Shown here: piece by piece, positions 4,845 to 37,087 of the stretch
Position numbering within the stretch: the stretch's first letter is position 1
How the letters are laid out: the number at the start of each line of letters is the position of its first letter
The notes under the pieces: generated by a model
The model's input: the letters and a program-made list of their open reading frames with translations, nothing else
The model's database searches: none
Told to the model about the DNA's origin: nothing
Source of the DNA: Klenkia soli
GTDB lineage: Bacteria; Actinomycetota; Actinomycetes; Mycobacteriales; Geodermatophilaceae
Length of the DNA stretch: 64,000 nt
Assembly: GCF_900103975.1 (NCBI RefSeq)
Contig: NZ_FNIR01000007.1
Coordinates: 1-64,000 of the forward strand
Direction of reading: 5' to 3'
Position numbers and translations under genes: made by a program

Positions 4845-4998
4845 GGGGACCTCTCCCGTTGCGGTGGGCGGGCCGTCGTCCGACGACCCGCGGGTGCTGG
4901 GCTGACGAGGTGGCTCGGGTGCCTCGTCGAGGTCGGCGTCAGGGAGGTGCCCGCACTCGAGCGGGTCCCGCAGAGCGGGCCTGGCGTCTAGCGGCTCT

Positions 4999-5016
4999 TC
5001 AGAACCGCCATTCTGA
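4999..5016. promoter_or_regulatory. inverted repeat, copy 1 of shared operator (TCAGAA-N6-TTCTGA)
   Basis: Perfect 6-bp arms TCAGAA and TTCTGA separated by CCGCCA. It starts two bases after the GMC oxidase stop codon and lies about 155 bp upstream of the Hyi-family start at 4844. On the minus strand a TAGAAT hexamer (a plausible -10) overlaps its upstream edge. The same architecture occurs at 15099-15118 and, with one mismatch, at 20702-20719. I infer an internal promoter and operator for the isomerase operon. The rest of the 174-bp gap holds only a short CCCGC-AGA-GCGGG hairpin. Confidence 0.6.
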
Positions 5017-5018
5017 TT

Positions 5019-7552: not shown

Positions 7553-7570
7553 GGATCTCCTGTCAGCGGG

Positions 7571-7939
7571 TCAGAACATCGGGTGGTCGGTGGCGGACGT
7601 CGCCGGCCAGGGCTGGATGACGTCCCAGTGCTCGACGACCTGCTCGCCGTCCCAGCGGTAGAGGTCGACGACGGCGGCCACCGGCCGGCCGTCGCGCACG
7701 ATGCGCAGGTGCACCGCGCACAGGTCGCCGTCCACGAGGAGCCGGACAACCTCGGGGGCGAAGCCCGGGTCGGCGAACATCGCCACCAGCGGCTCCCGGG
7801 CGGCGTCCCGGCCGTCGGCCAGGCCGGGGTTGTGCTGCACGTAGTCGGCGGCCACGTAGGTGTCGAAGGCCGCGCCGACGTCCTTGCGGCGGTACATCAC
7901 GTCGACGAAGTCCTCGACCAGCCGGCGGTCGGCGGTCAC
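7571..7939 (-). CDS. NTF2/SnoaL-like small protein
   Basis: Protein of 122 residues with the cone-shaped NTF2 fold pattern: N-terminal helices (LVEDFVDVMYRRKD), YVQHNPGLADGRDA, then beta strands ending VVEHWDVIQPW, which is typical of SnoaL-like polyketide cyclase or dehydratase relatives. The GTG start overlaps the stop of the beta-subunit gene (GTGA), so it is translated with it. SnoaL-like proteins act as small hydratases, isomerases or ligand-binding proteins. It could act on the unsaturated sugar or the aglycone from the neighbouring deglycosidase, but no activity can be assigned. Confidence 0.75.
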   Translation of the reverse strand: MTADRRLVEDFVDVMYRRKDVGAAFDTYVAADYVQHNPGLADGRDAAREPLVAMFADPGFAPEVVRLLVDGDLCAVHLRIVRDGRPVAAVVDLYRWDGEQVVEHWDVIQPWPATSATDHPMF

Positions 7940-8322
7940 CCCGCGAGGGTCAGGCGCTTGCGGTCCCGGCCGCCGCCGGGCACCGGCATGTAGGAGATCC
8001 GCAGCCGCACCGCCACCGCCACGTCGTGCTCGCCGGGCGCGAGCGGTGCGTCGGTCTCGAAGGCCAGCTGGGCACGCTCCCCCATCTCCCACCGGTCGTG
8101 GAGCACCGTGGGCAGCTGGTCGAAGCCGTAGCTGTTCCCGTGCACCGTGAGGGTGGTGCGCGCAGCCGGGACCGGGACGCCGTCGAGGGTCAGGTCGACG
8201 GCCTCGACCATCGACAGGCCCAGACCGCGGTAGTAGGGCATGCGGACCTCGACGACGCCGCCGGTGCGGCCGTCGTCCCGGGCCCGGAAGCCCTCCTCGC
8301 AGACGATGTACTGGTCGAACAT
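7936..8322 (-). CDS. C-glycoside deglycosidase beta subunit-like (DUF6379 type)
   Basis: Protein of 128 residues with all-beta composition, the size of the small beta subunit of CarBC/DgpBC C-deglycosylation enzymes. It aligns with the first 130 residues of the fused protein at 26452-27750: both share a GFR N-terminal motif, a PxYRG segment and a DGVxVP segment. Its ATG overlaps the alpha-subunit stop by one base (TGATG), so the two subunits are coupled. In the known enzymes this subunit packs on the TIM barrel and helps shape the active site. The family assignment rests on size, pairing and the internal homologue. Confidence 0.75.
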   Translation of the reverse strand: MFDQYIVCEEGFRARDDGRTGGVVEVRMPYYRGLGLSMVEAVDLTLDGVPVPAARTTLTVHGNSYGFDQLPTVLHDRWEMGERAQLAFETDAPLAPGEHDVAVAVRLRISYMPVPGGGRDRKRLTLAG

Positions 8323-9314
8323 CAGACGGACTCCGTTCCGAGCAGGCGGGTGAACAGGGCGTGCTGGCGGCGGACCTGCTCGACGCTGTCCACGGGGAAG
8401 GCGTCCTGGATGTGCCGGTTGCCCTCGTACTCGCTGGACAGGTAGCCGTCGTAGCCGCCCTCGACGAGCACCGGGACGATCCGCTCGTAGGGGATCGAGT
8501 ACTCGGAGCCCTCGTCGGTCATCTCGTAGAACTTCGCCTGGATGTGCCCGATCAGCGGCATGTGCGGCAGCATCGAGCGGGGGTCGGTCCAGATGTAGTG
8601 CGTGGCCTGGCGGGCCAGCCCGACCTCGACCGGGCCGCCGTGGCGGTAGTTCATGATGTCCATCAACGCGTGGGTGTCGCCGTGGTCGTCGTAGGTCTTG
8701 ACGATGTAGTCCACGAGCTCGGGCCGGGCGCCGTCGCGCAGGGCGCGGTCGCTGACCACCCGTGGGAACCGCTCCACGAAGGTGCCCATGTCCGGCATGA
8801 GGCCCAGGGCCGGGGAGCCGGTGCGGTGCATGACCTCGAGGTGCTCGAGGATCCACGGGTGCTCGTAGTGGAAGGGCGCGTGCACCTCCAGCAGCAGCCG
8901 CACGCCGTGGGCCTCCGCGTAGGGCGCGGCCCCCTCCATCACCTCGGGCGGAGTGTTGATGATCGCCCGCACGATGCGCGCGTCCAGGCGCACGGCGATG
9001 TCGACGTCGCGGCGGACCGAGGCGACCTGCTCCGCGAGGGTCAGCCAGCGGTCGGCGTGCAGCTTGGTGTCCAGGAAGAGGTCGGTGGCCACCGGCGTGG
9101 TGCCGTAGGTCTCCATCCAGCCGTGCCAGGTCGCGACGAACTCGTCGGTCAGCTGCGGGAAACCCGGGACGGACTGCTCGGGGATGATCTCGATCCCCCG
9201 GGCACCCATGTCGGCGGCGGCGCGGATCTGGTCCTCGAGGCTCAGGGTGCGCAGGAAGTACTCCTCCTGGAAGGAGTACAGGCTCACGCCCCTCTTGATC
9301 TGGTGCTCGGCCAC
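8322..9314 (-). CDS. C-glycoside deglycosidase alpha subunit-like TIM barrel (CarB/DgpB type)
   Basis: TIM-barrel protein of 330 residues starting at GTG 9314. Probable metal ligands are Glu143 (LLEVHAP), Asp175 (LMPDMG), His257 (GHIQAKF) and Glu295 (YLSSEYEG); His145, two residues after Glu143, is a candidate catalytic base. The fused homologue in module 2 conserves all of them (EIH, VDTG, HFIQAKF, WLSSEYEG). The known enzymes use Mn2+ to cleave the bond between a 3-keto sugar and its aglycone, giving the free aglycone and an unsaturated keto sugar. The gene follows the ABC importer by 22 bp and is coupled to the beta subunit. O-glycoside elimination by the same chemistry is an alternative activity. 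Confidence 0.8.
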   Translation of the reverse strand: MAEHQIKRGVSLYSFQEEYFLRTLSLEDQIRAAADMGARGIEIIPEQSVPGFPQLTDEFVATWHGWMETYGTTPVATDLFLDTKLHADRWLTLAEQVASVRRDVDIAVRLDARIVRAIINTPPEVMEGAAPYAEAHGVRLLLEVHAPFHYEHPWILEHLEVMHRTGSPALGLMPDMGTFVERFPRVVSDRALRDGARPELVDYIVKTYDDHGDTHALMDIMNYRHGGPVEVGLARQATHYIWTDPRSMLPHMPLIGHIQAKFYEMTDEGSEYSIPYERIVPVLVEGGYDGYLSSEYEGNRHIQDAFPVDSVEQVRRQHALFTRLLGTESV

Positions 9315-22801: not shown

Positions 22802-23998
22802 ATGTCCCACCCCTCCCCCGGACGGGTCGCCGTCCTCGGCGCCGGCCCCGCCGGCATGGCCGCCGCGCTCGGCGCGATCCGCGCCGGCCACGACGTCACG
22901 GTGTACGAGCGGTACCGGGAGGCACGGCCGGCCGGCAACATCCTCAACCTGTGGCCGCCGCCGCTGAAGGCGCTGCGGGCGCTGGGGGTGGACACCGTCG
23001 ACCTCGGGGCCCCGACCGACTCCGAGTTCCGCAACCTGCGCGGCGACGTCCGGGTGCGGGTCAAGCTCGACCAGGCGGCCAAGGACGAGTTCGGCGGCGG
23101 GTTCATCGGCCTGCTGCGCCCCGAGCTCTACCGCCGCATGCTCGAGGCCCTGCCCGGGGGCACCATCCGCTTCGGCCAGCAGGTCGAGCGCATCGAGCAG
23201 GACGACCGCGCGGTCACCCTGCACTTCGCCGACGGCAGCACCGCCGAGCACGACGTGCTGGTCGGCGGTGACGGCATCGACTCGCTCGTGCGGCGGACCC
23301 TGTGGGGCGACGCCCCCAAGCGGGAGCACAAGCTGCACATCTTCGGCGGCTTCACCTTCGCCGAGGTCCCGGGCACCACCCCGAACAGCTGCGTGCTGAC
23401 CCACGGCCCGACCGTGCAGGGCAGCTGGACGTCGATCCGGCACGAGGGCCGCGACGGCCACCAGTGGTGGGTGCTGACCGCCTGCGACCCCGACGCCCCC
23501 GCCCCGGCCGACCTCAAGGCCGCGGCGACCGCGCTGGCCACCGGCTTCCCCGCCCCGCTGCCCGGGCTGATCGCCGCCACCGCCGACGCCGACGTGCAGC
23601 GGTGGGTGCTCCGCGACCGGCCCGCGCTGGAGCAGTGGTCGAGGGGCCGCGCCACCCTGGTCGGCGACGCCGCCCACCCGACGTCGCCCTACGCCGCATA
23701 CGGCGCGGGCATGTCCATCGAGGACGGCTACTTCCTCGGCGTCGCCCTGCGCGGGGTCGACCTCACCGACGCCGCCGCCGTGGCCGTGGCACTCCAGAGC
23801 TACGAGGACCCGCGCAAGCCGCACACCGCCCAGCAGGTGCAGCAGGCCTACCTGCTGGGCAAGGTGTTCCACCACGCGCCCGCGTTCCTGCGGCCGGTGC
23901 GGGACTTCGTCTTCGACCACACCCCGTTCCTGCAGAAGGTGGCCGGCGACAGCAACCCGGCGATGATCAGCAAGCAGCTGGCCCTCATCGAGGGCTGA
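22802..23998 (+). CDS. FAD-dependent aromatic hydroxylase (PHBH-fold monooxygenase)
   Basis: Protein of 398 residues with all class A flavoprotein monooxygenase motifs: N-terminal VLGAGPAGMA for the FAD ADP part, VGGDGIDS (DG motif) about residue 158, and VGDAAHPTSPYAAYG near residue 290. These NAD(P)H-dependent enzymes hydroxylate phenolic rings; the neighbours suggest an aglycone fragment as substrate, but none can be assigned. ATG 22802 with AGG eight bases upstream. Its 3' end overlaps the convergent Gfo gene by 14 bp. Confidence 0.9.
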   Translation: MSHPSPGRVAVLGAGPAGMAAALGAIRAGHDVTVYERYREARPAGNILNLWPPPLKALRALGVDTVDLGAPTDSEFRNLRGDVRVRVKLDQAAKDEFGGGFIGLLRPELYRRMLEALPGGTIRFGQQVERIEQDDRAVTLHFADGSTAEHDVLVGGDGIDSLVRRTLWGDAPKREHKLHIFGGFTFAEVPGTTPNSCVLTHGPTVQGSWTSIRHEGRDGHQWWVLTACDPDAPAPADLKAAATALATGFPAPLPGLIAATADADVQRWVLRDRPALEQWSRGRATLVGDAAHPTSPYAAYGAGMSIEDGYFLGVALRGVDLTDAAAVAVALQSYEDPRKPHTAQQVQQAYLLGKVFHHAPAFLRPVRDFVFDHTPFLQKVAGDSNPAMISKQLALIEG

Positions 23999-24977
23999 CC
24001 CGGTCCGCCGCAGGGTGGGCGACCAACCGGGCGCGGACCAGGTCGATCGTGTCCAGGACGGCGATCGTGTCCCGCAGCGGCCGGTCGGGGTGCTCCAGGA
24101 GTCCCGCGGCGAGGGCCTCGCCGACCGCGCGGAACATGGGCACGTAACCGTTGCCCTCCAGCGGCAGCGTGATGCGGTCGGGCCGCCGGGACGGCGGCGT
24201 CAGCACCTCGAGGGAACCCGTGGCGAAGAACGGTGCGTCCAGGGTGATCGCCCCGTCCGTCCCGCCGATGTCCGCGCCCGCCCCGACGAAGCTGCGCAGG
24301 CTGGTCAGCAGGGAGGCGAACCGGGCGTCGCCGTGGCGCAGGAACACCGACGCCGTCAGGTCGACGCCGTCCGCGCGCACCTCACCGGTCGCATCGACGG
24401 CCGTCGGCGCGCCGAGCAGCAGGTGCGCCAGGGTCAGCGGGTAGACCCCCATGTCCAGCAGCGCCCCGCCGCCGTCGGGCCGCCAGTGCGCCGCGCCGGG
24501 CGGTGGCGGGAAGCCGAAGCTGGCCCGGACCGAGCGCACCTCGCCGATCCTGCCGTCGGCGACCTCCTGGAGCACCCGGCGCACGGCGGGGTTGAAACGC
24601 ATCCACATGGCCTCCATCAAGAAGCGGCCCTGCTCGGCGGCGAGCGCGGCCAGCGACCGCGCCTCGTCGGCCGTGCTGGCGAGGGCCTTCTCGACGAGGA
24701 CGTGCTTGCCGGCCAGCAGCGCCCGGCGGGCGAGGTCGGCGTGGGTGCCGATCGGGGTGCAGAGGTAGACGACGTCGACGTCGTCGGCGGCGAGGAGCGC
24801 GTCCACGTCGCCGTACCACCGCGGGACCTCGTGGGCGGCCGCGAACGCGGCCGCGGTCTCCTCGTGGCGCGAGGCGACGGCCACGAGGTGGACGTTCTCG
24901 GCCAGGTGCAGATCACCGACGGTGGCCCGGCTGATCCCGCCGGTGCCGACCATCCCCCACCGCGTCCGGCCGCTCAT
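23985..24977 (-). CDS. Gfo/Idh/MocA family oxidoreductase
   Basis: Sugar dehydrogenase-like protein of 330 residues. Rossmann motif MVGTGGIS near the N-terminus; the usual EKP reads EKA here (HVLVEKALAST); MEAMWMRFNP and GGGALLDMGVYPL follow, typical of the trans-dihydrodiol/glucose-fructose oxidoreductase-like subgroup. Last gene of module 2; its ATG overlaps the GH43 stop by one base (TGATG). Probably acts on a keto sugar or a 1,2-diol intermediate. The Pro-to-Ala change in EKP is tolerated in this subgroup. Confidence 0.88.
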   Translation of the reverse strand: MSGRTRWGMVGTGGISRATVGDLHLAENVHLVAVASRHEETAAAFAAAHEVPRWYGDVDALLAADDVDVVYLCTPIGTHADLARRALLAGKHVLVEKALASTADEARSLAALAAEQGRFLMEAMWMRFNPAVRRVLQEVADGRIGEVRSVRASFGFPPPPGAAHWRPDGGGALLDMGVYPLTLAHLLLGAPTAVDATGEVRADGVDLTASVFLRHGDARFASLLTSLRSFVGAGADIGGTDGAITLDAPFFATGSLEVLTPPSRRPDRITLPLEGNGYVPMFRAVGEALAAGLLEHPDRPLRDTIAVLDTIDLVRARLVAHPAADRVSPR

Positions 24978-26455
24978 CAGCCGGCCACGCCTCCGCCCTC
25001 GAGCAGCGCGTCCGCGGCATCCGACCCGCGGTACCGCAGGGCGCGCACCAGCACCCTGCCGTCGGTGCAGGTGATCCCGGCCAGCCGGCCGGTCATGCCG
25101 CCGGCGACCTCGGTGGAGACGTACCGGCCGTCCACCGACCCCAGGGCCTCGAACGCCCCGTCGACGACGATGCCCGCGGTGACCCGGTCCGGGCCCAGCC
25201 CCGTGGAGAACGGGCGCGGCTCGGTCCCCGGCGAGGTCGCGATCCGCAGCTGCGTGCCGGCCGGCAGCTCACGCGTCCCGAGCACGTGCCGGACGTCCCC
25301 GACCGCCCAGACCGCCGACACCCGGCCGTCGGCCACCTCCAGCTCCAGGCCGTGCCGCGGGTCGATGCGCAGCGCCACCCCCCCGGTGCCGGTGACCTCG
25401 AGGTCTGCGGTGACGTCGCAGAAGAGCTGCTCCTGCCGGGTGCCCAGGAAGCCCGGGCCCACTACCAGCCCGCGGTCGGTCCAGCGGGTCAGCTCTGCGG
25501 GGAACCGCTCGGCGGCCACCCACTCCGGGCCCGTGCCCGGGCCGGTCAGCTCACGGACGACGACCTCGTCCACCGGCCCGATCGGCTCGACCGGCCCCGC
25601 GACGACCGGCCAGCCGTCCACCCAGTCGATGTCGACGGCGAAGGTCTCCCGGCCCAGCACGTGCCACTCCGGGCTGGCGCCGCGGGCCCGCACGCCGTGG
25701 AACACCATCGCCCAGCTGCCGTCGGGGCGGTGCACCAGGTCGGCGTGCCCGGTGTTCTGCACCGGGTGGTCGGTGCCCCGGTGGGTGAGCACCGGCCCGG
25801 TCGGGCACGCCTCGAAGGGGCCGGACGGCGAGGCACTCCGCGCGATGGTCACGGCGTGACCGCGCTCGGTGCCGCCCTCGGCGATGAGCAGGTACCAGTG
25901 CTCGCCGATGCGGTACAGGTGCGGGCCCTCGGGGAACTTGCCCCCGGTGCCCGACCAGATCCGCCGCGGCGGGGTCAGCACCTCGCCGGTCACCGGGTCG
26001 ATCGCCGACTGCACGATGCCGCCCAGGGCACCGAACCCGGCGTACGTCATCAGGCAGGTGCCGTCGTCGTCCCACGCCAGGTCGGGGTCGATGCCGACCG
26101 CGCCGGGGATCCGGGCGGGCACCGACCAGGGGCCGGCCGGGTCGGTCGCCCAGCTGATCAGCTGCCCGCCCTCGTCGGTCCAGTTGGTGGTGGCCATCCA
26201 GCACCGGCCGCCGTGGTGGCGCAGGGTCGGTGCGAACACACCGCCGGCCGGGCCCGCGTCGCGCACGTCGAGCTGCTCGGGCCGGTCCAGCACGTGCCCG
26301 ATCTGCTCCCAGGTGCGCAGGTCGGTCGACCGGAACAGCGGGACGCCGGGGGCGTACTCGAAGCTCGAGCAGGCCAGCAGGTACTCCCCGTCGACGACGC
26401 AGACGCTCGGGTCGGGGTGGAAGCCCGGGACGACCGGGCGGGTGCCGACGCTCAT
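24977..26455 (-). CDS. GH43 family beta-xylosidase / alpha-L-arabinofuranosidase
   Basis: Glycoside hydrolase of 492 residues without signal peptide. The five-bladed propeller catalytic residues are visible: Asp15 in GFHPDPS (base), Asp123 in GIDPDLAW (pKa modulator) and Glu176 in KFPEGPHLY (acid). The C-terminal half from about residue 310 resembles the beta-sandwich of GH43_C2 (XynB-type) enzymes. It would remove pentoses (xylose or arabinose) from imported glycosides in the cytosol. Its ATG overlaps the stop of the fused deglycosidase (ATGA), so it is translationally linked to C-deglycosylation. Confidence 0.9.
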   Translation of the reverse strand: MSVGTRPVVPGFHPDPSVCVVDGEYLLACSSFEYAPGVPLFRSTDLRTWEQIGHVLDRPEQLDVRDAGPAGGVFAPTLRHHGGRCWMATTNWTDEGGQLISWATDPAGPWSVPARIPGAVGIDPDLAWDDDGTCLMTYAGFGALGGIVQSAIDPVTGEVLTPPRRIWSGTGGKFPEGPHLYRIGEHWYLLIAEGGTERGHAVTIARSASPSGPFEACPTGPVLTHRGTDHPVQNTGHADLVHRPDGSWAMVFHGVRARGASPEWHVLGRETFAVDIDWVDGWPVVAGPVEPIGPVDEVVVRELTGPGTGPEWVAAERFPAELTRWTDRGLVVGPGFLGTRQEQLFCDVTADLEVTGTGGVALRIDPRHGLELEVADGRVSAVWAVGDVRHVLGTRELPAGTQLRIATSPGTEPRPFSTGLGPDRVTAGIVVDGAFEALGSVDGRYVSTEVAGGMTGRLAGITCTDGRVLVRALRYRGSDAADALLEGGGVAG

Positions 26456-27750
26456 GACCGCTCGGCAGCGATGGAGCGCATCAGGGCGTGCGACCGGCGG
26501 ACCTGGTCCCCGCCGCGGTACGGGTCGCGCCGGCCCTCGTACTCGCTGGACAGCCAGCCCGACCAGCCGGCGTCCTGCAGCGCCGGGATGATCTCCCGCC
26601 ACGGCACGTGCAGGTCGTGCAGGTCGTCGTCGACGGTGGCGAACTTGGCCTGGATGAAGTGCACGTGCGGCAGCACCTCGACCAGGTCGGCGATCGGCAC
26701 GGCGAGCGGGCGCAGGTGCATCGGCACCTCCTCGTCGTCGTCGACCTGGATCTCCTCGGACAGCTCCAGGACCGGTGCGGTGTTGAAGATGCCGGTGTCG
26801 ACGAGCAGCTTGAAGTGGTCGCTGCCGGTTCGCTCGATGAAGTCCACGTAGGCCTGGGTGACCGGGTGCTTGATCGGCGTCGGGGCGTGGATCTCCGGGC
26901 AGATGACGACGTCGAGCTCGGCGGCCAGCTCCAGCGAGCGCTCGACGGACTCCTGCCAGATCGGGTGCGGGTCCAGGTCCCAGGAGGTGACCCCGAACTT
27001 CGGCCGCACCGAGGTGAAGCCCAGCCGGGAGGCCAGCCGCAGGTCCTGCTGGATCTGGGCGGCGCCCTCCTCGGCGGTGAGGCTGCGGTCGTGCCACATC
27101 TCGGTGTCGACCCAGGAGCCGTAGTTGGTGGCGGTCAGGGAGTAGCGGTCCAGCAGGGTGCGCCAGTGGTCCACCCAGCCGGCGTCCGGGGTGGGGTAGC
27201 CCGGGATGTTGCCCTCGCCGAGGATCTCCACGCCGGTGGCACCCATGTCGGCGATGTCGGCGAGCACGTCCTCCATCGTCATCAGCGTGTAGATGTCGGC
27301 GGTGTAGCTGTAGGTGGAGACGCCGAACTTCAGCCCGCCGCCGGGCACCGGCGGGACCAGCACCGGGGTGGCCGAGGCGGTGAACGTCGTCCGGTTCACC
27401 ATCGGCGGGAAGTAGGGACGGCGGAGGAAGACCACCACGTCGAGCTGGTGCACACCCGCGGCGAGGCCGCCGGGCTTCGGCACGGTGATGGTGGCCAGCT
27501 CGTCGAGCTGCCAGCGGACGTCGGTCGAGGCGCGCAGTTCGTCCAGGGTGAGCGTGCGGCCCTGCAGCGTCCACAGCGGCACGTGGTCGGGGACCCGCTC
27601 GCCGTCGACCACGACCTCGACGCCGTCGAGCAGGCTGCCCGAGACGCCCCGGTAGTTGGGGTTGCGGAGCTGGAACCGGAAGCCGGTGACCCGGCCGCCC
27701 TCGGTGACGTTGCGGAAGCCGCGGGATTGGATGACGGAGCGGTCGAGCAT
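26452..27750 (-). CDS. fused C-glycoside deglycosidase: beta domain + alpha TIM barrel
   Basis: Single open frame of 432 residues. Residues 1 to about 130 are the small beta-sandwich domain (homologue of the 128-residue protein at 7936-8322); about 139-432 are the metal-dependent TIM barrel. Candidate ligands are Glu286 (PEIHAP, with His288 as possible base), Asp318 (LLVDTG), His364 (HFIQAKF) and Glu403 (WLSSEYEG), all shared with the separate alpha subunit at 8322-9314. A short Pro/Gly-rich linker (VPPVPGGG) joins the halves. Order is beta then alpha, the reverse of the gene order in module 1. ATG is 2 bp after the GMC stop. Predicted role: cleavage of the 3-oxidised glycoside. Confidence 0.85.
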   Translation of the reverse strand: MLDRSVIQSRGFRNVTEGGRVTGFRFQLRNPNYRGVSGSLLDGVEVVVDGERVPDHVPLWTLQGRTLTLDELRASTDVRWQLDELATITVPKPGGLAAGVHQLDVVVFLRRPYFPPMVNRTTFTASATPVLVPPVPGGGLKFGVSTYSYTADIYTLMTMEDVLADIADMGATGVEILGEGNIPGYPTPDAGWVDHWRTLLDRYSLTATNYGSWVDTEMWHDRSLTAEEGAAQIQQDLRLASRLGFTSVRPKFGVTSWDLDPHPIWQESVERSLELAAELDVVICPEIHAPTPIKHPVTQAYVDFIERTGSDHFKLLVDTGIFNTAPVLELSEEIQVDDDEEVPMHLRPLAVPIADLVEVLPHVHFIQAKFATVDDDLHDLHVPWREIIPALQDAGWSGWLSSEYEGRRDPYRGGDQVRRSHALMRSIAAERS

Positions 27751-27752
27751 GG

Positions 27753-29294
27753 TCAGTTCCTCTCGGAGAGCGAGCCGGCGATCGAGCGCGCGCCGGCGAC
27801 GGCGAGCGCGACCGAGGTCAGGGTGGGGTTGCAGGCGATGGGGGTGGGGATGACGCCGTTGCCCGCGACGTGCAGGCCGGGGACGTCCCAGACCTCCGAG
27901 GTGGGCCCGCAGACCGAGGTGCCGTCGGGGGTCTCGCCCATCCGGACGGTGCCCTGGATGTGCAGCGAGGCGCCCGGGCCGAAGGTGAACGGCTCGCCGC
28001 CCAGCGGGTCGCCGAGGGCCGCGGCGACCTCCTTCACCGCGGCGGTGGCCGCCGCGATCGAGGCGTGGTCGGCCTCGGTGAGCCGGTAGTGCACCTGGAT
28101 GCCGGGCATGCCGTACGGGTCGGGCGCGGTCTCGTCGAACTCGAGCCGGTCGCTGTCCTGCAGGTCCTTGGCGCAGAACCAGCCCAGCCCGACGATGGTG
28201 CCCGGGGTCGGGACGTCGTCGGCGGCCAGCGGCACCGGAGAGGCGTCGAGCTGCATGACCTGGCCGTGGAAGGGGTGCTGGTCGGTGTAGGGCACCCAGC
28301 TGACCCCGCTCTGCGCCACGATCGAGCTGCGGCCGCGCGGGTCGACGTCCTCCTGGTCGGCGTGCCCGACGTCGCGCAGCCGGACGGCGTAGACGGTCTG
28401 CGGCTGGTCGTTGAGGTACCGGCCCAGCGCGTGCGGCCGGACGCCGGAGGCCCACAGCAGCTGCGGGGTGCGCAGACTGTCCGCGGCCACGACGACGTAC
28501 CGGGCGGCGACGTCGTGCTCCTGCCCCGTCTGCAGGTCGCGCACCCGGACGCCGGACGCGCGCCCGTCGGTCAGCAGCACCCGGGTGACCAGCGCCTCGG
28601 GCAGCAGGGTGTGCCGCGGGTTGGCCCGGGTGACGTCGCCGTAGACGACGTCGGAGCCCGACCAGGTCAGCCGGCCGTCGGCGTGCCGGGTGACCGCCAG
28701 CGGCATCGGGCCGACCCGGCGGTCCTCCGCCCGGTCGGCGTCCAGGTGGTCGGCCAGCCGCTTGCGGACCTCGTCGGCGAACGGGGCGTCGTCGAAGGCG
28801 TGGTCGTCGACGGCCAGCAGCCTCTCGCCCTCGGTCAGCAGCTCGTCGAGGTCGGCCAGGAACGCGATCCGCTCGCCCTCGCCGGGCCGCGGGCAGGCGC
28901 CGGTCCAGTGCGCGCCCATGCCGCCGACGTTGCTGGACATCGCCGCGTTGGGCAGGCCGTCCTCGCCGGGCTGGCGGTAGCCCGCGGGCAGCAGCCAGGT
29001 GCCGGGGCGGGCCATCCGGGGCGCCTCGTCGGCGTAGCCGTCCATGGTGTCGGTCGGGGTGTCCGCCGAGAGCGGCGCCGGGCCCTCCGAGGCGCGCTGG
29101 GCGGCGGACCGGGCCTGCTCGTCGAGGATGTTCTTCACGTGCCCGCCGGGCGGGTCGGCCAGCTGCGGACCGACCTCGAGGGTCAGCAGGGTGGCCTGCG
29201 GGGCGCGCTCGCTGAGCACGCGGGCGTAGGCGGCGCCGCACGGGCCGCTGCCCACGATGACGACGTCGACGCTGGTGGGGAAGGTCCTGCTCAT
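27753..29294 (-). CDS. GMC-type FAD oxidase, C-glycoside 3-oxidase/pyranose oxidase-like (module 2)
   Basis: Paralogue of the 5019-6584 protein, 513 residues. Same landmarks: VGSGPCGAAYARVLSE FAD motif, GGMGAHWTGACPRP with the possible flavinylation His, GQVMQLDASPVP, and C-terminal ASLHIQGTVRMG and ACNPTLTSVALA with catalytic His and Asn. Expected to oxidise the sugar at C3 before the fused deglycosidase acts, using oxygen or another acceptor. ATG 29294 overlaps the Gfo stop. Divergence between the copies lies mostly in the middle (substrate) region, suggesting different sugar or aglycone preference. Confidence 0.85.
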   Translation of the reverse strand: MSRTFPTSVDVVIVGSGPCGAAYARVLSERAPQATLLTLEVGPQLADPPGGHVKNILDEQARSAAQRASEGPAPLSADTPTDTMDGYADEAPRMARPGTWLLPAGYRQPGEDGLPNAAMSSNVGGMGAHWTGACPRPGEGERIAFLADLDELLTEGERLLAVDDHAFDDAPFADEVRKRLADHLDADRAEDRRVGPMPLAVTRHADGRLTWSGSDVVYGDVTRANPRHTLLPEALVTRVLLTDGRASGVRVRDLQTGQEHDVAARYVVVAADSLRTPQLLWASGVRPHALGRYLNDQPQTVYAVRLRDVGHADQEDVDPRGRSSIVAQSGVSWVPYTDQHPFHGQVMQLDASPVPLAADDVPTPGTIVGLGWFCAKDLQDSDRLEFDETAPDPYGMPGIQVHYRLTEADHASIAAATAAVKEVAAALGDPLGGEPFTFGPGASLHIQGTVRMGETPDGTSVCGPTSEVWDVPGLHVAGNGVIPTPIACNPTLTSVALAVAGARSIAGSLSERN

Positions 29295-30397
29295 GGGGTG
29301 GCTCCTGCCGGTGCGGCGGTGGTGGGGGTGACGTCGACCCAGCGGTCCGTGCGCGCGGACTCCAGGACCGCGGCGGTGAGGTGCGCGGCCCGCAGGCCGT
29401 CGGTGAAGGTGGGCAGCCCGTCGGGGGTGTCCCCGGCGAGCGCGGCGTAGGTGTCGGCGACGAAGGCGTCGAAGCAGTCCTGGTAGCCCTGCGGGTGGCC
29501 GGCCGGGACCCGGTCGTACCGGGTCGCGCCGGGGTGCGCCGACGTTCCGCGGGCCAGCAGCGTGGTGGCGTCCCGTTCGCCGACCCACAGCGTCTCGGGG
29601 GCCTCCTGGTCGAAGACCAGGCCCTCGTGCTCGCCGTCCAGGGAGAACCACAGCCGGTTCTTCCGGCCCGGGCTGACCTGGCTGACGGTGAGGTTCCCGG
29701 TCGCGCCGCCGTCGGTCTCGAACAGCACGACGGCGCCGTCCTCGGTGCGCACCGGGCGCCCGCCCCGCTCGGGGACGGCGACCAGCAGCCGGGCGGCCAG
29801 GCGGGTGACCCGGTGGCCGGTGACGAACTCGACCAGGTCGCACCAGTGCACGCCGATGTCGGCGAACGCGCGGGAGGGCCCGCCGACGGCGGGGTCGACG
29901 CGCCAGTCGTCGTCCTCGTGGCCGGTCAGCCAGTCCTGCAGGTAGGACCCGTGCAGCAGGCGCAACGGACCGGTCCGGCCGTCGGCGACGCGGGCGCGGG
30001 CCTCGCGCACCGTGGGGTAGAAGCGGTAGACGAACGGCACGGTGGCGACCACGCCGGCCGCCGCGGCCAGCGCGGTGAGCTCGGCCGCCTCGGTCGGGTC
30101 GACGGCCAGCGGCTTCTCGCAGACGACGTGCTTCCCGGCGGCGAGCACCGCGCGGACCAGCGGGGCGTGCGTGGCGTTGGGCGTGCAGACGTGGACGACG
30201 TCGACGTCGGTGGCCAGCAGCTGGTCCAGGTCGTCGGCGCACGCCTGCGCACCCAGCCGGTCGGCGGCGGCGCGGGAGCGCTCGGGGGTGGAGCCGACGA
30301 CGGCGGCGAGGACGCCGCCGCTGCGGGTGATCGCCCGGGCGTGCACGGTGGCCATGAAGCCACCGCCGACGACGCCGGCTCGGATGCGGTCGGTCAC
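29291..30397 (-). CDS. Gfo/Idh/MocA family oxidoreductase (module 2)
   Basis: Protein of 368 residues; Rossmann [16 protein letters not shown] motif CEKPLAVDP, then [16 protein letters not shown] with the family His in the substrate domain. Located between the importer ATPase gene and the GMC oxidase. It resembles the 1-624 protein in overall organisation (DIGxH, QDWL segments), so each module has its own copy. May reduce the 3-keto sugar or regenerate the free sugar. NAD(P)-dependent by family. Confidence 0.9.
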
Positions 30398-30483: not shown

Positions 30484-31317
30484 TCAGGCGCGGGCGGCGG
30501 CGAGGCGGTGGCGCTCCTCCCGGCGGGCGGCCTGACGGGCGGGGTCGGGCACGGGGGCGGCCAGCAGCAGGGTGCGGGTGTAGGAGTGCCGCGGGTCGCT
30601 CGTCACCTGGGCGGCGTCGCCGGTCTCCACCAGCTCACCGCGGTGCATGACGGCGACCCGATGGCTGATGTGCCGGACAACCGACAGGTCGTGGGTGATG
30701 AACAGGTAGGCCACGCCGGTGCGCTCCTGGATCTCGATGAAGAGGTCCAGCACGCGCGACTGGGTGCTGAGGTCCAGCGCGCTGACCGGCTCGTCGCAGA
30801 CGATCACCGCGGGGTCCCGGGACAGCGCGCGGGCGATGGCGATCCGCTGACGCTGGCCGCCGGAGAACTCCCGGGGCAGCCGCTGGCCGGCGTCCTGGGG
30901 CAGGTGCACCTCGTCGAGCAGGTCGCGCACCCGGCGGTCGGCGTCGGCCCGGCTGGCCCCGGCCACCACCAGCGGCTCGGTGAGGATGTCGGCGACGGTC
31001 ATCGCCGGGTTCAGCGAGCTGTAGGGGTCCTGGAACACGACCTGGATGTCCCGGCTCAGCGCCCGGCGGGCCTTCGTTCCGATGCCGGAGATGCGCTCGC
31101 CGCGGAACCGGATCTCCCCGCCGGTCACCGGCGCGAGCCCGAGGACGGCGCGGCCCAGCGTCGTCTTGCCCGAGCCGGATTCTCCCACCAGCCCGACGGT
31201 CTCGCCGGGGAGGATGTCCAGGCTGATCCCGTGCAGCACCCGCGCGGGCGCCTGGCGGAAGCCGCGGAGCGGGTACTCCACGACGACGTCCTCGATCTCC
31301 AGCAGCGGCGCGGTCAT
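30484..31317 (-). CDS. oligopeptide-type ABC transporter ATP-binding protein (DppF-like, module 2)
   Basis: ATPase of 277 residues; Walker [10 protein letters not shown], signature FSGGQRQR, Walker [12 protein letters not shown]. Shorter than the module 1 counterpart (355) because it lacks the Cys-rich C-terminal extension, ending in a charged tail. ATG 31317 overlaps the fusion-protein stop. Pairs with the ATPase half of the upstream fusion to power import. Confidence 0.92.
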
Positions 31318-33134
31318 CGGGTGCCTCCGGCGGGGGTGGTCAGGGCCGCCCGTGCGGGACCGCCCTCGAGGGTCGCGGCCAGCAGGCTGCGGGTGTACTC
31401 GTGCTGCGGGTCGGCGAACAGCTGGGCGGCCGCCGCGGACTCCACGACCTCCCCGGCGCGCATGACGGTGACCGTGTCGCACAGGTCGGCCACCACGCCG
31501 AAGTCGTGGGTGACCAGCAGGACGCCGAGGTCGCGCTCGGCCTGCAGGTCGCGGACGAGGTCGAGCACCTCGGCCTGCACGGTGACGTCCAGGGCGGTGG
31601 TGGGCTCGTCGGCGATCAGCAGGTCGGGGTCGCAGGACAGCGCGCCGGCGATGAGCACCCGCTGGGCCATGCCGCCGGAGATCTGGTGCGGGTAGCTGTC
31701 GAAGACCCGTGCCGGGTCGACGATGCCCACCCGGTCCAGCAGCTGGATCGCCTTGGCCTTGGCCTCCGCCTTCGACAGGCCCAGGTGGTGCCGCATCGGC
31801 TCGGTGAGCTGGGAACCGATCCGGAAGGAGGGGTCCAGGTTGCTCATCGGCTCCTGCGGGATGTAGCCGATCCGCCGGCCGCGCAGCTGGTTCATCCCGC
31901 GCCGGGAGATGCCCCGCAGGTCACCGCCGTCGAAGGTCAGGGTGGTCGCCGAGGTGTGCGCCTGCGGCGGCAGCAGCCCGAGGACGGCGAAGGCGGTCTG
32001 GCTCTTGCCCGAGCCTGACTCCCCCACCAGGCCGTGCACCTCGCCGCGGCGGATGGTCAGCGAGACGCCGTGCACGACCTCTCCCTCGCCGCCGTCCGGC
32101 TCGGGGTAGGCCACCCGCAGGCCCTCGACCCGGAGCAGGGCGTCGTCGGGGGCGGGGGCCGTCCCCGAGCTCGGCCGGCCGTCCTCGACGACCGGACCGA
32201 CGGCCCGGACCGCCGAGCGCCTGCGCACCGGCGGGGTCGCCCCGACGCCGAGCACGTCGCGCAGGCCGTTGCCGACCAGGCTGCACGCGGTGACGGTGAC
32301 GACGATCGCCAGCCCCGGGAGGAGGAGCAGGTTCGGCGCTGCGTAGATCTTGGCGAAGGCGTCGTTGAGCATCCCGCCCCAGCTGGCCTGGTTCGCCGAG
32401 CCCAGCCCGATGAACTCCAGGCCGGCCTGCAGCACGATCGCGATGCCCAGGACCTGCGACATCTGGATGATCGTCGGGGCCACCACCACGGGCAGCACGT
32501 GCCGCCGCATGATGCGCGGGTCCGAGAGCCCGGCGACCCGGGCGGCGTCGACGTACAGCTCGCCGCGGACGGCGATGATCGAGGCGCGCACCAGGCGGAA
32601 GACCCCGGGGGCGATGACGACGCCGAAGACCAGCATCGCCAGCTCGGTGCTGCGGCCGAACTGGGCCAGCACCACCAGCAGGATGATGATCGCCGGCTGG
32701 GCCATCACCAGGTTCGCCACCCAGCTCGCCGCGGCGTCGAAGCGGCCGCGGTAGTAGCCGGCCAGGACACCGGCCGGCAGGCCCAGCACCAGGGCCACCG
32801 CCACCACGATCAGTGCGCCGACCAGGCTGGTGCGGGCGCCGTAGAGCAGCTGGGCGAGCACGTCCCGGCCCAGGCCGTCGGTGCCCAGCGGGCTGTCGCC
32901 GCCGAAGGGGGCCAGCGCGTTGGTGATCGAGGACGCCGTGGGGCTCGCAGACGTGAGCAGCGGCGCTGCCGCCGCCAGGACCGCGACCAGCAGCAGCCAG
33001 GCCACCGAGGCCACCGCCACGGGCTTGCGCAGGAACCGGCGCGCCACGCCGGCCCGGGGCGGGACGGCGGTCGGGGCGACCGAGGACGAGGGAGCGGCTG
33101 CGGCGGCCGGACCGCCGTCGGACAGGAGGCTCAT
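31314..33134 (-). CDS. ABC transporter permease-ATPase fusion (DppC-DppD-like, module 2)
   Basis: Fusion of 606 residues. The permease half (to about residue 310) contains [12 protein letters not shown] and [10 protein letters not shown]. The ATPase half (about 335-606) has Walker A GESGSGKS, signature ISGGMAQR and Walker [14 protein letters not shown]. Same architecture as 10401-12419 but lacking the Cys-rich C-terminal extension. Starts and stops overlap both neighbours, so subunit ratios are translationally coupled. Confidence 0.92.
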
Positions 33135-34072
33135 GCCGTGCGCACCTTCGGGTTGAGCCAGCCCAGGGCCAGATCGGCCAGCAGGTTGACGACGACGACG
33201 AGCACGACGGTGAGCACCACGACGCCCAGGACCACCGGGACGTCGCCCGTACTGGCCGCCGAGGTCGCGCGCTCGCCGATGCCGTTGAGACCGAACACCT
33301 TCTCGATCACGACCGCGCCGCTGATGAGGGCGATGAACTGCAGGGACAGCACGGTCAGCGAGGCCGGCGCGGCGTTCCGCAGGGCGTGCTTGAGCAGGAT
33401 GCTGCGGGTCGGCAGGCCACGGCTGCGCAGCGTGCGGACGTAGTCCTGGCCCAGCACGTCGATCATCGAGCCGCGGGTCTGGGTGGCCACGGTGGCGGTC
33501 GCGCCGATGGCCAGCGCGACGGCGGGCAGCGTGATCGACGCCGCCCACAGCCCGGGGTCCTGGGCGAACGGGGTGTAGCCGATGGCCGGGAAGAGGCCCA
33601 GCTGCACGGCGAAGACCAGGGCGAGCAGGAGGCCGACCAGGAAGTTGGGGACCGCGAAGGCCAGGATCGAGGCGCCCTGCAGGGCCGAGTCGACCCAGCC
33701 GCCGCGCACCGCGGCCACCACGCCGATCACCACGCTGACCAGGGCGGTCAGCACGATCGCGGCGACGACCAGGGACAACGAGATGGGCAGGGCGTCGGCG
33801 ACGGTGCCGCCGACCGGCTGGTTGGTGAACCAGGAGACCCCCAGGTCCCCGTGCACCGCGCTGGTCAGCCAGTCCCAGTACCTCTCGAGCACCGGGCGGT
33901 CCAGCCCGAGCTCCTGACGCTTGGCCAGCACGGTGGCGGCGTCGGCCTGCGGGCCGACGATCCGCCGGGCGGGGTCGGACCCGGTGGCGTTGGTGAGGAA
34001 GAAGGTCGCCGTGGCGGTGACCCAGACGAGCACGACACCGGCGCCGAGCCGCTTGAGCAGGAACCCGAGCAT
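33131..34072 (-). CDS. ABC transporter permease (DppB-like, module 2)
   Basis: Six-TM permease of 313 residues; MLGFLLKRLGAGVVLVWVTA start, QDYVRTLRSRG coupling motif and [11 protein letters not shown] end are DppB hallmarks. ATG 34072 lies 71 bp after the binding-protein stop, the gap filled by a strong hairpin. Forms the pore with the DppC half of the next gene. Confidence 0.92.
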   Translation of the reverse strand: MLGFLLKRLGAGVVLVWVTATATFFLTNATGSDPARRIVGPQADAATVLAKRQELGLDRPVLERYWDWLTSAVHGDLGVSWFTNQPVGGTVADALPISLSLVVAAIVLTALVSVVIGVVAAVRGGWVDSALQGASILAFAVPNFLVGLLLALVFAVQLGLFPAIGYTPFAQDPGLWAASITLPAVALAIGATATVATQTRGSMIDVLGQDYVRTLRSRGLPTRSILLKHALRNAAPASLTVLSLQFIALISGAVVIEKVFGLNGIGERATSAASTGDVPVVLGVVVLTVVLVVVVNLLADLALGWLNPKVRTA

Positions 34073-34104
34073 CGTTGCCCTCCTGGTCCAGGTGGATGGG
34101 TGGA

Positions 34105-34138
34105 CCCGCGCCCGCGGGGGTGTCCCCGCGGGCGCGGG
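34105..34138 (-). terminator. intercistronic hairpin after binding-protein gene (module 2)
   Basis: Perfect 15-bp arms (34105-34119 and 34124-34138) around a GTGT loop, starting 5 bp past the lipoprotein stop. It occupies the same place as the module 1 hairpin but differs in sequence, so the position rather than the sequence is conserved. Probably limits permease expression relative to the binding protein. Confidence 0.72.
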
Positions 34139-34143
34139 GTGGG

Positions 34144-35676
34144 TCAGCTACCGGCCGGTGCGAAGCTGCTCAGCGGCGGGATCGACAGCCCGGGCACGCC
34201 CTGGACCGTGACGTCGGCCGTGGTCACGTAGGCACCCTCGAGGGCGTACCAGGGGGCGAACCAGGCCTGCTCGACCAGCTGGTCGGACAGCTGCTGCAGC
34301 ACGTCGGCCTGCTGGTCGGCCGGGGCGGTGACGGCCTGCTGCACCAGCGCGTCGATGGAGGGGTCGCTGCTCTTGAACGGGTTGAACGGCGACTGCTGGG
34401 TGAGCGTGAGGCCGATCATCTCGTAGGGCGACCCGGCGGTCAGCGTGAAGAAGTTCGCCGGCCACTGCGCGCCGATGATGCTGCCGACGACCTGGTCACC
34501 GGTGATCGGCGCGTAGGTGACGTCGATGTTCAGCGAGGAGAAGGCCTCGGTCATGGCGGCCTGCTCGTCGGGGTAGACCGGCGAGAAGTCCGGCAGCGTC
34601 ATCGAGAAGCCGTCGGCGTACCCGGCCTCGGCCATGAGCTCCTTGGCCTTGTCCAGGTCGAAGTCGTAGGTGCCCTCGAGCGAGGCGTCGTAGCCGTCGG
34701 ACTCCGGCCCGAAGACCTGCACGGTGGGCTGGCCCAGACCGTTCTTCACCACGTCGACGATCGACTGGCGGTCGATGGCGTAGTTGATCGCCTGCCGCAC
34801 CCGCACATCACCCAGGGCCGGGGCCAGGGCGCCGGCGCGGTCCCACAGGTAGATGCCCTCGATGCCGCCGCTGGTGTAGGTGGTCACCGTCAGGCCCGCG
34901 CTCTCCGCGCCGTCCTGCAGGTCGTTGGTCTGGGCGGTCGAGCCGTCGATCTGGCCCGACCGCAGGCCGTTGAGCACCGCGGTGGTGTCGTCGAGGTACT
35001 GCACCTCGACGGTGTCGAAGGGGTAGGAGTCGGCGTCCCAGTAGTCCTCGTTGCGGGTGAACGTGTAGTCGCTGCCCGCGGTGCTGGCGTCGGCGTCGTA
35101 GACGTACGGGCCGGAGCCGACCGGGTTGGTGGCCAGGTCGGGGCTGTCCAGCGCGTCCGGGCTGGCCATGTAGCCGCTGCTGCGGGCCAGGCTCTGCAGC
35201 AGGCCCGGGTCGGGCCGGCTGAGGACGAGGTCCACGTGGGTGGCGTCGACGACCTCGACGCTGCTGATCGACCCGAGCGCGGTGCCGGCCTCGCCGGTGG
35301 CGGCGCGGGCGACGTCCAGGTTGGCCTTGACCGCGTCGGCGTCGAACGCGGTGCCGTCGGTGAAGGTCACGCCCTCGCGCAGGGTCAGGCTCAGCGTCGT
35401 GTTGGTCTCGTCGTAGGACCACTCGGTGGCGAGGTCCGCGGCGGGCTGGCCGTCGGCGTCCTGGGTGAGCAGCTTGTCGTAGACGGCCTGGTAGTAGGTG
35501 TCCTCGGGGCCGCTCTGCGCCATCGCGCCGATGGCGAACGAGCTGGGCGGGGTGATCGCGGCGAGGGTCAGGGTGTCGTCACCGCCCCCGGACCCGGAGG
35601 AGGAACCGCCCCCGCCGCCGCACGCGGCGAGCAGGAGCAGGGACGCGGCACTGGCCGCGATGAGGGACCGACGCAT
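34144..35676 (-). CDS. solute-binding lipoprotein of ABC transporter (SBP family 5, module 2)
   Basis: Secreted binding protein of 510 residues. Signal MRRSLIAASAASLLLLAAC with the lipobox Cys at about 19, then a Gly/Ser-rich linker. Family 5 motifs include FDADAVKANL, GSGPYVY and RVRQAINYAI. ATG 35676 is chosen because it starts the signal peptide; the upstream in-frame ATG would bury it. First gene of the module 2 operon, preceded by a recognisable promoter at 35781-35808. Ligand likely a glycoside by context. Confidence 0.92.
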   Translation of the reverse strand: MRRSLIAASAASLLLLAACGGGGGSSSGSGGGDDTLTLAAITPPSSFAIGAMAQSGPEDTYYQAVYDKLLTQDADGQPAADLATEWSYDETNTTLSLTLREGVTFTDGTAFDADAVKANLDVARAATGEAGTALGSISSVEVVDATHVDLVLSRPDPGLLQSLARSSGYMASPDALDSPDLATNPVGSGPYVYDADASTAGSDYTFTRNEDYWDADSYPFDTVEVQYLDDTTAVLNGLRSGQIDGSTAQTNDLQDGAESAGLTVTTYTSGGIEGIYLWDRAGALAPALGDVRVRQAINYAIDRQSIVDVVKNGLGQPTVQVFGPESDGYDASLEGTYDFDLDKAKELMAEAGYADGFSMTLPDFSPVYPDEQAAMTEAFSSLNIDVTYAPITGDQVVGSIIGAQWPANFFTLTAGSPYEMIGLTLTQQSPFNPFKSSDPSIDALVQQAVTAPADQQADVLQQLSDQLVEQAWFAPWYALEGAYVTTADVTVQGVPGLSIPPLSSFAPAGS

Positions 35677-35780
35677 GGGGACTCCAGGGGCGACGGGACC
35701 GACGGTGGCCCCGGGCGGCGCGAGCCGCTGTGACAGGTCGCAGGCGCCCGGTCTGTGCCTCGGGTCACCCTGCATCGCCG

Positions 35781-35808
35781 ACTTTAGCGCCAGTGGCACA
35801 TATGTCAA
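35781..35808 (-). promoter_or_regulatory. sigma70-type promoter for module 2 operon
   Basis: On the minus strand TTGACA (35808-35803) and TAAAGT (35786-35781) are separated by 16 bp. A start near 35774 would give a leader of about 98 nt to the lipoprotein ATG. The AT-rich spacer ACATATGT-like segment is a possible binding site for the ROK regulator encoded just upstream. Confidence 0.65.
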
Positions 35809-35824
35809 GGACCACGTTCGTGGC

Positions 35825-37087
35825 TCAGCCCACGGCCACCTGGTGCAGGTGCGCGGCGTGGCCCACCGGGCTGCCGTGCTCGACCCAGTGGCCGAGCCCG
35901 GCCGGGTCGAAGAGCTGCTCGATGGCCAGGATGGCCGCGCCGGTCACCCCCTCCTGGAAGCCCAGCGAGGCAGGCCGGATCACCAGCTGCTGCCCGGCCA
36001 GCCGGGAGACCCGGCCGCGCACGGTCTCGGCGAAGGTGTCGAACACCGACTCCCCCACCCGCAGGGCGCCTCCGCCCAGCACCACGGTGCCCGGGTTCAC
36101 GAAGTTCACCAGGTTGGCCACGGTGGTGCCGACCAGCCGGGCGCTGGCCAGCACCACCTCGGTGGCCAGCGGGTCGCCGTCCCGGGCGGCCATGCCGACG
36201 TCCTCGGCGGTGAGCTGGCCGTGCCGCTCGAGCAACCGGCGCAGCGCCGGGCTCTCGTCGACCCGGCCGGTCACGCGGCGCACCAGGCTCCAGCCCCCCG
36301 ACAGCGCCTCCAGGCACCCGGTCTGGCCGCACCGGCACAGGACGTCGGGGTCGTCGGTGACCTGCAGGTGGCCGATGTCCCCGGCCGCCCCGCTGTCGCC
36401 GCGCCACACCTGGCCCCGCGAGACCAGACCGGCGCCGACCCCTTCGTCGACCAGGATGTACAGCAGGTCGCGCCCGTCCTGGGGCTCGCCGACGTGCCAC
36501 TCGGCCAGGGCCATGAGGTTGACGTCGTTGTCCACCCAGACGGGGGCGTCGTAGCGCTCACGGAACCAGGTGCGCACGCTGTGGCCGTCCCATCCGGGCA
36601 GGATCGGCGGGGCCACGATGCGGCCGCTGCCGAAGCTGACCGGCCCGGACACGCCGACCCCGAACGCCCACGGCTCGGTGCGGGTCCGGCGGGCCAGCCG
36701 GGTGAACATGCCGTCGAGCATCGCCATGGTCGCCTCGGGCCCGACGTCGGCCACCCAGTCCTGCTGCATCGAGGCGATCACGGCGCCGTCGAGGGTGGCC
36801 ACCGCCACGCGGCTCTCGGTGGCCCCGATGACCGCGGCGAACACGTGCCCGGCCTCGACCCGGAACCGCAGCTGGCGCGAGGGCCGCCCACCGCCGGAGG
36901 GCGCCAGGTCGGCGTCCTCTAGCAGGCCGACGTCGATGGCCTGCTGCACCCGCTGGGCGACGACCTTGCGGCCCAGCCCGCTCTGCTGCTCCAGGGCCGG
37001 CCGGGTCAGTGCCGCGCCGGTGCGCACCAGGTTGATCAGGCGGCTCTGCACGAAGGCGTCCTGCGGGGACGGTGCCGAGCTGGTCAT
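35825..37087 (-). CDS. ROK family transcriptional regulator
   Basis: Regulator of 420 residues: N-terminal winged HTH (about residues 12-65, ALTRPALEQQSGLGRKVVAQRVQ) joined to a ROK sugar-kinase-like domain. The glucose-site motifs are present: VDNDVNLMALAEW, and the zinc motif CRCGQTGCLEA. Such proteins usually repress sugar operons and release DNA on binding a sugar. It is upstream of the module 2 operon on the same strand and divergent from the GH78 gene, so it probably controls both. Its own promoter may use the TATGAT hexamer at 37122-37117. Confidence 0.9.
   Translation of the reverse strand: MTSSAPSPQDAFVQSRLINLVRTGAALTRPALEQQSGLGRKVVAQRVQQAIDVGLLEDADLAPSGGGRPSRQLRFRVEAGHVFAAVIGATESRVAVATLDGAVIASMQQDWVADVGPEATMAMLDGMFTRLARRTRTEPWAFGVGVSGPVSFGSGRIVAPPILPGWDGHSVRTWFRERYDAPVWVDNDVNLMALAEWHVGEPQDGRDLLYILVDEGVGAGLVSRGQVWRGDSGAAGDIGHLQVTDDPDVLCRCGQTGCLEALSGGWSLVRRVTGRVDESPALRRLLERHGQLTAEDVGMAARDGDPLATEVVLASARLVGTTVANLVNFVNPGTVVLGGGALRVGESVFDTFAETVRGRVSRLAGQQLVIRPASLGFQEGVTGAAILAIEQLFDPAGLGHWVEHGSPVGHAAHLHQVAVG

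Follow-up and report, generated by a model that had tools for sequence, protein, structure and literature searches.

Whether an enzyme that breaks the carbon-carbon bond of C-glycosides can be made as one polypeptide is the question raised by a gene of the actinomycete Klenkia soli, located on the minus strand at 26452..27750 (stop codon counted in) of the 64,000-nucleotide stretch analysed here (positions 1 to 64,000 of contig NZ_FNIR01000007.1, hereafter the window). The DgpBC (PuCGD/PuCGE) and CarBC-type (MiCGD, AgCGD2) C-glycoside deglycosidases (CGDs) are made of α and β subunits that come from two separate genes, and deglycosidase gene pairs lie side by side in every genome, as far as investigated (Mori et al., 2021, PMC8563793). 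A sequence-only reading of the window had claimed that the β and α subunits are naturally fused at this locus, and that a single-chain enzyme of this kind may be new. Judging from its sequence and its modelled structure, the gene likely encodes a single-chain C-glycoside deglycosidase, that is, a 3-keto-C-glycoside β-eliminase.

The fused gene and its closest structural relatives

Translated on the minus strand, the gene consists of 432 codons from an ATG plus a TGA, with zero internal stops; the plus-strand frame at the same positions meets a stop already at codon 2. The 432-residue product starts with a β-sandwich that matches the Pfam family CGDB (PF19906, C-glycoside deglycosidase β) over residues 2-113 (27412..27747, minus strand; E-value 6e-38, 129.5 bits against a cut-off of 27.6) and continues with a metal TIM barrel at residues 139-432 (26455..27336, minus strand), of which residues 164-426 match AP_endonuc_2 (PF01261, xylose isomerase-like barrel; E-value 4e-19, 69.8 bits against a cut-off of 31.1). 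One uninterrupted frame with the β domain ahead of the barrel is thus present as initially read. The structure predicted for the protein, with an alignment of 25 fused proteins (see below) as input, is confident (mean predicted local distance difference test score (pLDDT) 87.6, predicted template modelling score 0.88), the strands of the sandwich reaching residue 127 and the first strand of the barrel beginning at 141. In the region that corresponds to the lid of longer α subunits (residues 322-353) the model has no helix of at least four residues, and mean pLDDT is 52 at residues 331-340; the modelled barrel therefore looks like the short, lid-less type found in Eubacterium DfgAB.

The best match of the fused protein in the PDB is 8QRZ/8UN2, aligned from residues 1-429 to residues 2-431 (E-value 6e-136), with which a profile search concurs. 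These entries, a crystal (8QRZ) and a cryo-electron microscopy (8UN2) structure released on 2025-04-23, are titled 'Microbacterium testaceum C-glucosyl deglycosidase (CGD), wild type' and contain a single chain of 435 residues, β domain then barrel. The model superposes on 8QRZ over residues 3-432, β domain included, with both domains in one superposition (Z-score 47.0, root-mean-square deviation (rmsd) 2.1 Å, 421 aligned residues, 51% identity), and its template modelling score against 8QRZ/8UN2 is 0.93; identity to the M. testaceum enzyme is 47% in the β domain and 53% in the barrel. The Klenkia protein, being one 432-codon frame and not an α and a β from separate genes, thus aligns end to end with a single-chain CGD of the same domain order. 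It follows from these deposited one-chain structures that the single-chain architecture, already solved in Microbacterium, is not new, contrary to what had been suggested. No paper describing a single-chain CGD was found in the open-access literature among the matches listed, and exact open-access searches for 8QRZ and 8UN2 returned no citing paper.

The best unfused solved match of the fused barrel is DfgA of Eubacterium cellulosolvens (7DRE chain A; Z-score 36.2, rmsd 1.8, 270 aligned residues, 38% identity). DfgA-DfgB (EuCGD; 7BVS, 7DRE, 7EXB) has a short lid-less barrel, as in the fused model, and differs from the window protein in being built of two chains arranged as an α4-β4 heterooctamer (PMC8563793) and in having His in the metal column discussed below. 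The DgpBC and CarBC-type enzymes share with the window protein the CGDB sandwich, the metal barrel, the catalytic His and an equivalent of Tyr39 of the β subunit; unlike it, they use His269 (AgCGD2 numbering) as a metal ligand, and PuCGD and AgCGD2 have a lid domain that the fused model lacks (PMC8563793). The C-glucosyl deglycosidase of Deinococcus aerius (8QVC, 8QVD, 8UMC) consists of two chains, is 31% identical to the fused barrel and is the nearest solved relative of a separate α-β pair that lies in the same window, while the O-glycoside eliminase AtOGE is a barrel alone, from which the window protein differs by having a β domain.

Distribution of the fused gene

The most trivial explanation of such an architecture, that a sequencing or assembly error merges two genes into one frame, is for this locus practically negligible. 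In a survey of the Geodermatophilaceae, 18 of 112 genomes match the fused protein and 14 contain the whole of it as a single frame without stops (71-100% identity), a further fused copy at 60% identity being present in one of the 14; in the independent assembly of Klenkia terrae, which serves as a control against sequencing error, the frame is likewise unbroken (98% identity). A scan of 84,980 species genomes with two short motifs from the alignment of fused proteins returned 31 loci (designated by L numbers where they need to be told apart), and in 29 of them, spread over two phyla, both domains lie within one open frame, a proportion that is not a measure of the prevalence of the fusion because the motifs derive from fused proteins. 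No stop occurs inside the matched stretch in 28 of the 29, and the sole stop of the other (L060) is the gene's own end, overrun by the match. The two exceptions are a Gaiellaceae metagenome-assembled genome (MAG) with separate genes (L069) and Streptomyces harenosi (L068, about 5991-7295), whose copy of the fused gene has a broken frame and is either a pseudogene or a sequencing error. This broken copy is the one point in favour of an artefact, and nothing of the kind is seen in the window gene itself; the full-length frames of the family and the one-frame loci of other assemblies rule out a frameshift joining two genes, and the fusion first read from the sequence is real.

The actinobacterial hosts among the 29 fused loci are Klenkia, Blastococcus, Geodermatophilus, Goekera, Streptomyces and Actinomadura, further hosts being Actinoallomurus, Actinocorallia, Nocardioides, Actinoplanes and Actinomycetospora. 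Six fused loci are gammaproteobacterial (Aestuariibacter, Paraglaciecola, Marinomonas, an Alteromonadaceae MAG and two loci of one further MAG). In an even sample of Actinomycetota the gene is rare: 3 of 396 genomes match the fused protein, at full length only in the window's own genome. A plasmid search with the window protein gave 22 matching records, of which 8 cover at least 80% of it and one of these (Arthrobacter) does so in one piece.

Active-site residues

The alignment of fused proteins contains 25 rows, namely the window gene and 24 of the 31 motif-scan loci; left out were L041, L049, L051, L058 and L067, which are near-copies or were dispensable, as well as the broken L068 and the unfused L069. 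From the α (barrel) alignment, domain matches under 200 profile positions were removed, and from the β tree those under 85. The metal ligands of AgCGD2 are Glu147, Asp179, His269, Lys271 and Glu305, and its base is His149 (Mori et al., 2021, PMC8563793). In the columns of this metal site the window protein retains E286, D318, K369 and E403 and has Gln367 in place of His269, and its H288 falls in the column of the catalytic His (AgCGD2 His149, PuCGE His143). E286, H288, D318, K369 and E403 are identical in all 51 aligned α rows and, together with Y33 and Q367, invariant in the 25 fused rows. The His269 column contains Gln in 27 of 28 fused and 6 of 23 separate rows, among the former the Microbacterium 8QRZ sequence; the remaining 17 separate rows and one fused row have His. 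Hydroxypyruvate isomerase has a Gln at a comparable metal position. The separate α of the window (8322-9314) and its relatives in L049 and L052 also have Gln in this column, perhaps acquired separately from that of the fused clade, as their sister 8QVC has His.

The catalytic set initially proposed for the fused protein therefore stands for E286, H288, D318 and E403 and not for H364. At this last position 20 of 28 fused rows have His, whereas the remaining 8 have Val, Tyr, Gly, Ala or Met (Val in the M. testaceum enzyme, unlike the window protein), and because it varies in this way H364 is unlikely to be a ligand; it was rejected as such on the conservation of its column alone, the known metal-His column being that of Gln367.

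In the β domain, Y33 aligns with residue 39 of DgpB, the Tyr before Arg-Gly (numbering taken from the DgpB alignment). Exchange of this Tyr39 of the β subunit for Phe in PuCGE abolishes more than 99% of C-glucoside cleavage, as compared with 59% of O-glucoside cleavage (Bitter et al., 2023, PMC10628242). Since Tyr is found at the Y33 column in 47 of 47 β rows, the residue fits cleavage of C-glycosides without discriminating inside the family.

Relation to the separate pair and origin of the fusion

The unfused pair that had been noted at 7936-9314 of the window consists of an α gene (8322..9314, 330 residues, nearest PDB entry 8QVC chain A) followed by a β gene (7936..8322, 128 residues, nearest 8QVC chain B), both on the minus strand, and would constitute another, distantly related C-glycoside deglycosidase. 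The whole K. soli genome contains only two CGDB domains, that of the fused protein and that of this pair. Identity of the fused protein to the pair is only 31% (α) and 30% (β), so the pair is a distant paralogue and not a recent parent of the fusion; an origin of the fused gene from this pair in the recent past was accordingly rejected, the two enzymes belonging to different subfamilies. The reversal of domain order relative to this pair, also pointed out earlier, is true within the window and not special, as the Gaiellaceae MAG and a Niallia plasmid also have unfused pairs with β ahead of α. A close relative of the window's separate pair (79-87% identity) is found only a few kb away from the fused gene in Geodermatophilus amargosae, G. 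obscurus and Goekera deserti, for which reason the fused and separate enzymes may act in a common pathway, possibly on different aglycones. L049 (1-7296), L051 and L052 have fused and separate deglycosidases together with a GMC oxidoreductase gene within a few kb; in the window the two enzymes are about 17 kb apart.

Phylogenetic trees were built without L044, L051, L056, L058, L061, L067, L068 and most loci of the family and phylum surveys, which were left out as duplicates. In the barrel tree all 27 short-type fused rows group with three sphingomonad rows (support 100/99), and the Gaiellaceae separate pair, β then α, whose matched stretches lie 26 bases apart, falls just outside. Inside this group, the sphingomonad pairs, α then β, stand beside the fused genes of Arthrobacter (on a plasmid) and Microbacterium (100/99), a sub-branch to which, unlike the M. 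testaceum enzyme, the window protein does not belong. The joined β+α tree agrees (support 99/97 for the group of 30 and 99/99 for that of five rows), and the β domain alone leaves the sphingomonad placement open. A clade of all 27 short-type fused rows excluding the sphingomonads was rejected by an approximately unbiased test (p 0.0039), in which the group was chosen after the first tree and the Gaiellaceae row and the outgroup were flagged as long branches. The sphingomonad pairs are located on plasmids (L073, 9974-11297; L074, about 9944-11303; L075, 7974-9322). The Gaiellaceae MAG (L069, KatS3mg012) contains at 2972-7747 three α and four β domains in a row, as separate genes and mostly β first.

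A second fusion of β and α in one frame, with a proline-rich linker, is located on the plasmid of Arthrobacter sp. StoSoilB13 (L072, NZ_AP024649.1, 13307-14794), directly behind the plasmid's fused gene of the window type. Its barrel and β domain both belong to a far subfamily and it has His at the metal position, and it looks like an independent event. Among 72,556 plasmid records 21 match this protein, and its whole length occurs in one piece only in its own record; ten more records cover at least 80% of it in two pieces, which are two genes in the four that are annotated. Of the 396 sampled Actinomycetota genomes 3 match it, none at full length.

Two histories can be read from the short-type group: either a single fusion that sphingomonads later split, with the gene order reversed, or two fusions with identical domain order. 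We lean to the former because both fused branches share their domain order. Tentatively, and with slightly less than an even chance of being right as a whole, we propose that fusion and splitting are reversible in this family. The short-barrel CGD would have been fused once from a Gaiellaceae-like β-α pair, have spread to Actinomycetota and Gammaproteobacteria and have been split again as α then β in sphingomonads, the fused lineage having swapped the metal-ligand His for Gln and the far subfamily having been fused independently on the Arthrobacter plasmid.

Gene neighbourhood

Directly upstream of the fused gene lies a gene for a GMC oxidoreductase of the bacterial pyranose oxidase/C-glycoside 3-oxidase group (27753..29330, upstream limit approximate), whose TGA ends 2 bases ahead of the ATG of the fused gene; the junction is preceded by a GAGAGGAA stretch resembling a ribosome-binding site. 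Downstream, the ATG of a gene for a glycoside hydrolase of family 43 (GH43; 24977..26455) overlaps the TGA of the fused gene (ATGA). With this spacing, ribosome-binding-site-like stretch and overlap, the GMC, fused and GH43 genes are probably translated together. The nearest solved relatives of the GMC protein are 7QF8 (E-value 3e-197) and 7DVE (E-value 5e-194), which are a bacterial pyranose oxidase and the C-glycoside 3-oxidase MtCarA, respectively, and share one common sequence space (Kostelac et al., PMC10807413); the GH43 protein is nearest to β-xylosidases and arabinofuranosidases. Of the 29 intact fused loci, 23 have a GMC homologue within the examined flanks (up to 6 kb). The cluster of the separate pair also contains a GMC oxidoreductase of the same group (5019..6884, an open frame with homology from about residue 108, the true start lying further in), with 7QF8 and 7DVE as best matches as for the first one.

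Further genes around the fused gene encode a Gfo/Idh/MocA oxidoreductase that is a candidate 3-keto-sugar reductase (29291..30397), a second protein of this family (23985..24977), Opp-type ATP-binding cassette (ABC) transporter components with a family 5 solute-binding protein as candidates for glycoside uptake (30484..35808) and a ROK-family protein (35825..37087). Like the GMC and GH43 genes, all of them are on the minus strand. Elsewhere in the window, one minus-strand frame at 19532-20689 joins a flavin reductase domain to a stretch resembling the C-terminal domain of IclR and adjoins a gene for a luciferase-like monooxygenase.

Proposed reaction and alternative functions

In the pathway that these genes suggest, the ABC transporter would import an aromatic C-glucoside, and the GMC enzyme encoded directly upstream would oxidise its sugar at C3. 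The 3-keto sugar would then be held by the metal ion in the barrel of the fused enzyme, to which Gln367 may contribute, and with the β domain docked on its own barrel, H288 would serve as acid-base and Y33 from this β domain would assist activation of the aglycone, leading to cleavage of the C-C bond by β-elimination. The sugar product would be hydrated and then reduced by the Gfo/Idh/MocA enzyme.

Three observations weigh against this proposal: the His that is a metal ligand in the characterised heteromeric enzymes is replaced by Gln367 in the fused protein; oxidation of a C-glycoside by the GMC enzyme is not certain, because its top match 7QF8 is a pyranose oxidase (PMC10807413); and none of the six gammaproteobacterial fused loci has a GMC homologue in the flanks examined (up to 6 kb), so that members of the clade may not all share one substrate. 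The last point also favours a different function, in which the fused protein would be a single-chain eliminase of 3-keto-O-glycosides, or a hydratase of 2-hydroxy-3-keto-glucal, and C-glycosides would not be its natural substrate. PuCGE acts on both 3-keto O- and C-glucosides (PMC10628242), the GH43 neighbour hints at O-linked sugars, and the C-specific enzyme of this genome could, unlike the fused one, be the separate pair. We nonetheless regard this function as unlikely: the nearest solved relative was deposited as a C-glucosyl deglycosidase, the O-glycoside eliminase AtOGE is described as having no β subunit (PMC10628242), and the Tyr that is needed far more for C- than for O-cleavage is kept in all 25 fused rows, yet, being present in every β row, it is not specific to the clade.

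It is far less probable still that the gene product is an ordinary sugar isomerase or epimerase to which an accessory domain has been added. The barrel does belong to the xylose isomerase-like superfamily, and many isomerases and epimerases align with the model at Z-scores of about 21-26, but the CGD chains stand well above them (31.1-47.0), and the sole NCBIfam match, an isomerase model, is far under its cut-off (13.3 against 353 bits). What argues for a natural β-α fusion of a C-glycoside deglycosidase, as first proposed from the sequence, is the domains, the superposition on 8QRZ, the conserved residues and the neighbouring oxidase gene; its novelty and the role of H364 are the parts that did not stand.

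Concluding remarks

A one-chain enzyme that cleaves C-C bonds of C-glycosides needs neither co-expression nor pairing of subunits, which is relevant to the use of these enzymes, also in the reverse direction, by which aryl C-glycosides are made (PMC13273386). A 2025 review, whose passages on deglycosidases treat them only as heteromers, describes transitions between heterodimers and natural fusions as noteworthy and in want of phylogenetic work (PMC12141560). The fused, separate and re-ordered forms of the clade (36-53% identical to the window protein per domain) offer a test of what a fusion changes in an enzyme with its active site at the interface of two subunits. The lasting interest of this family thus resides in its evolutionary switching between fused and separate forms and in the change from His to Gln at the metal.

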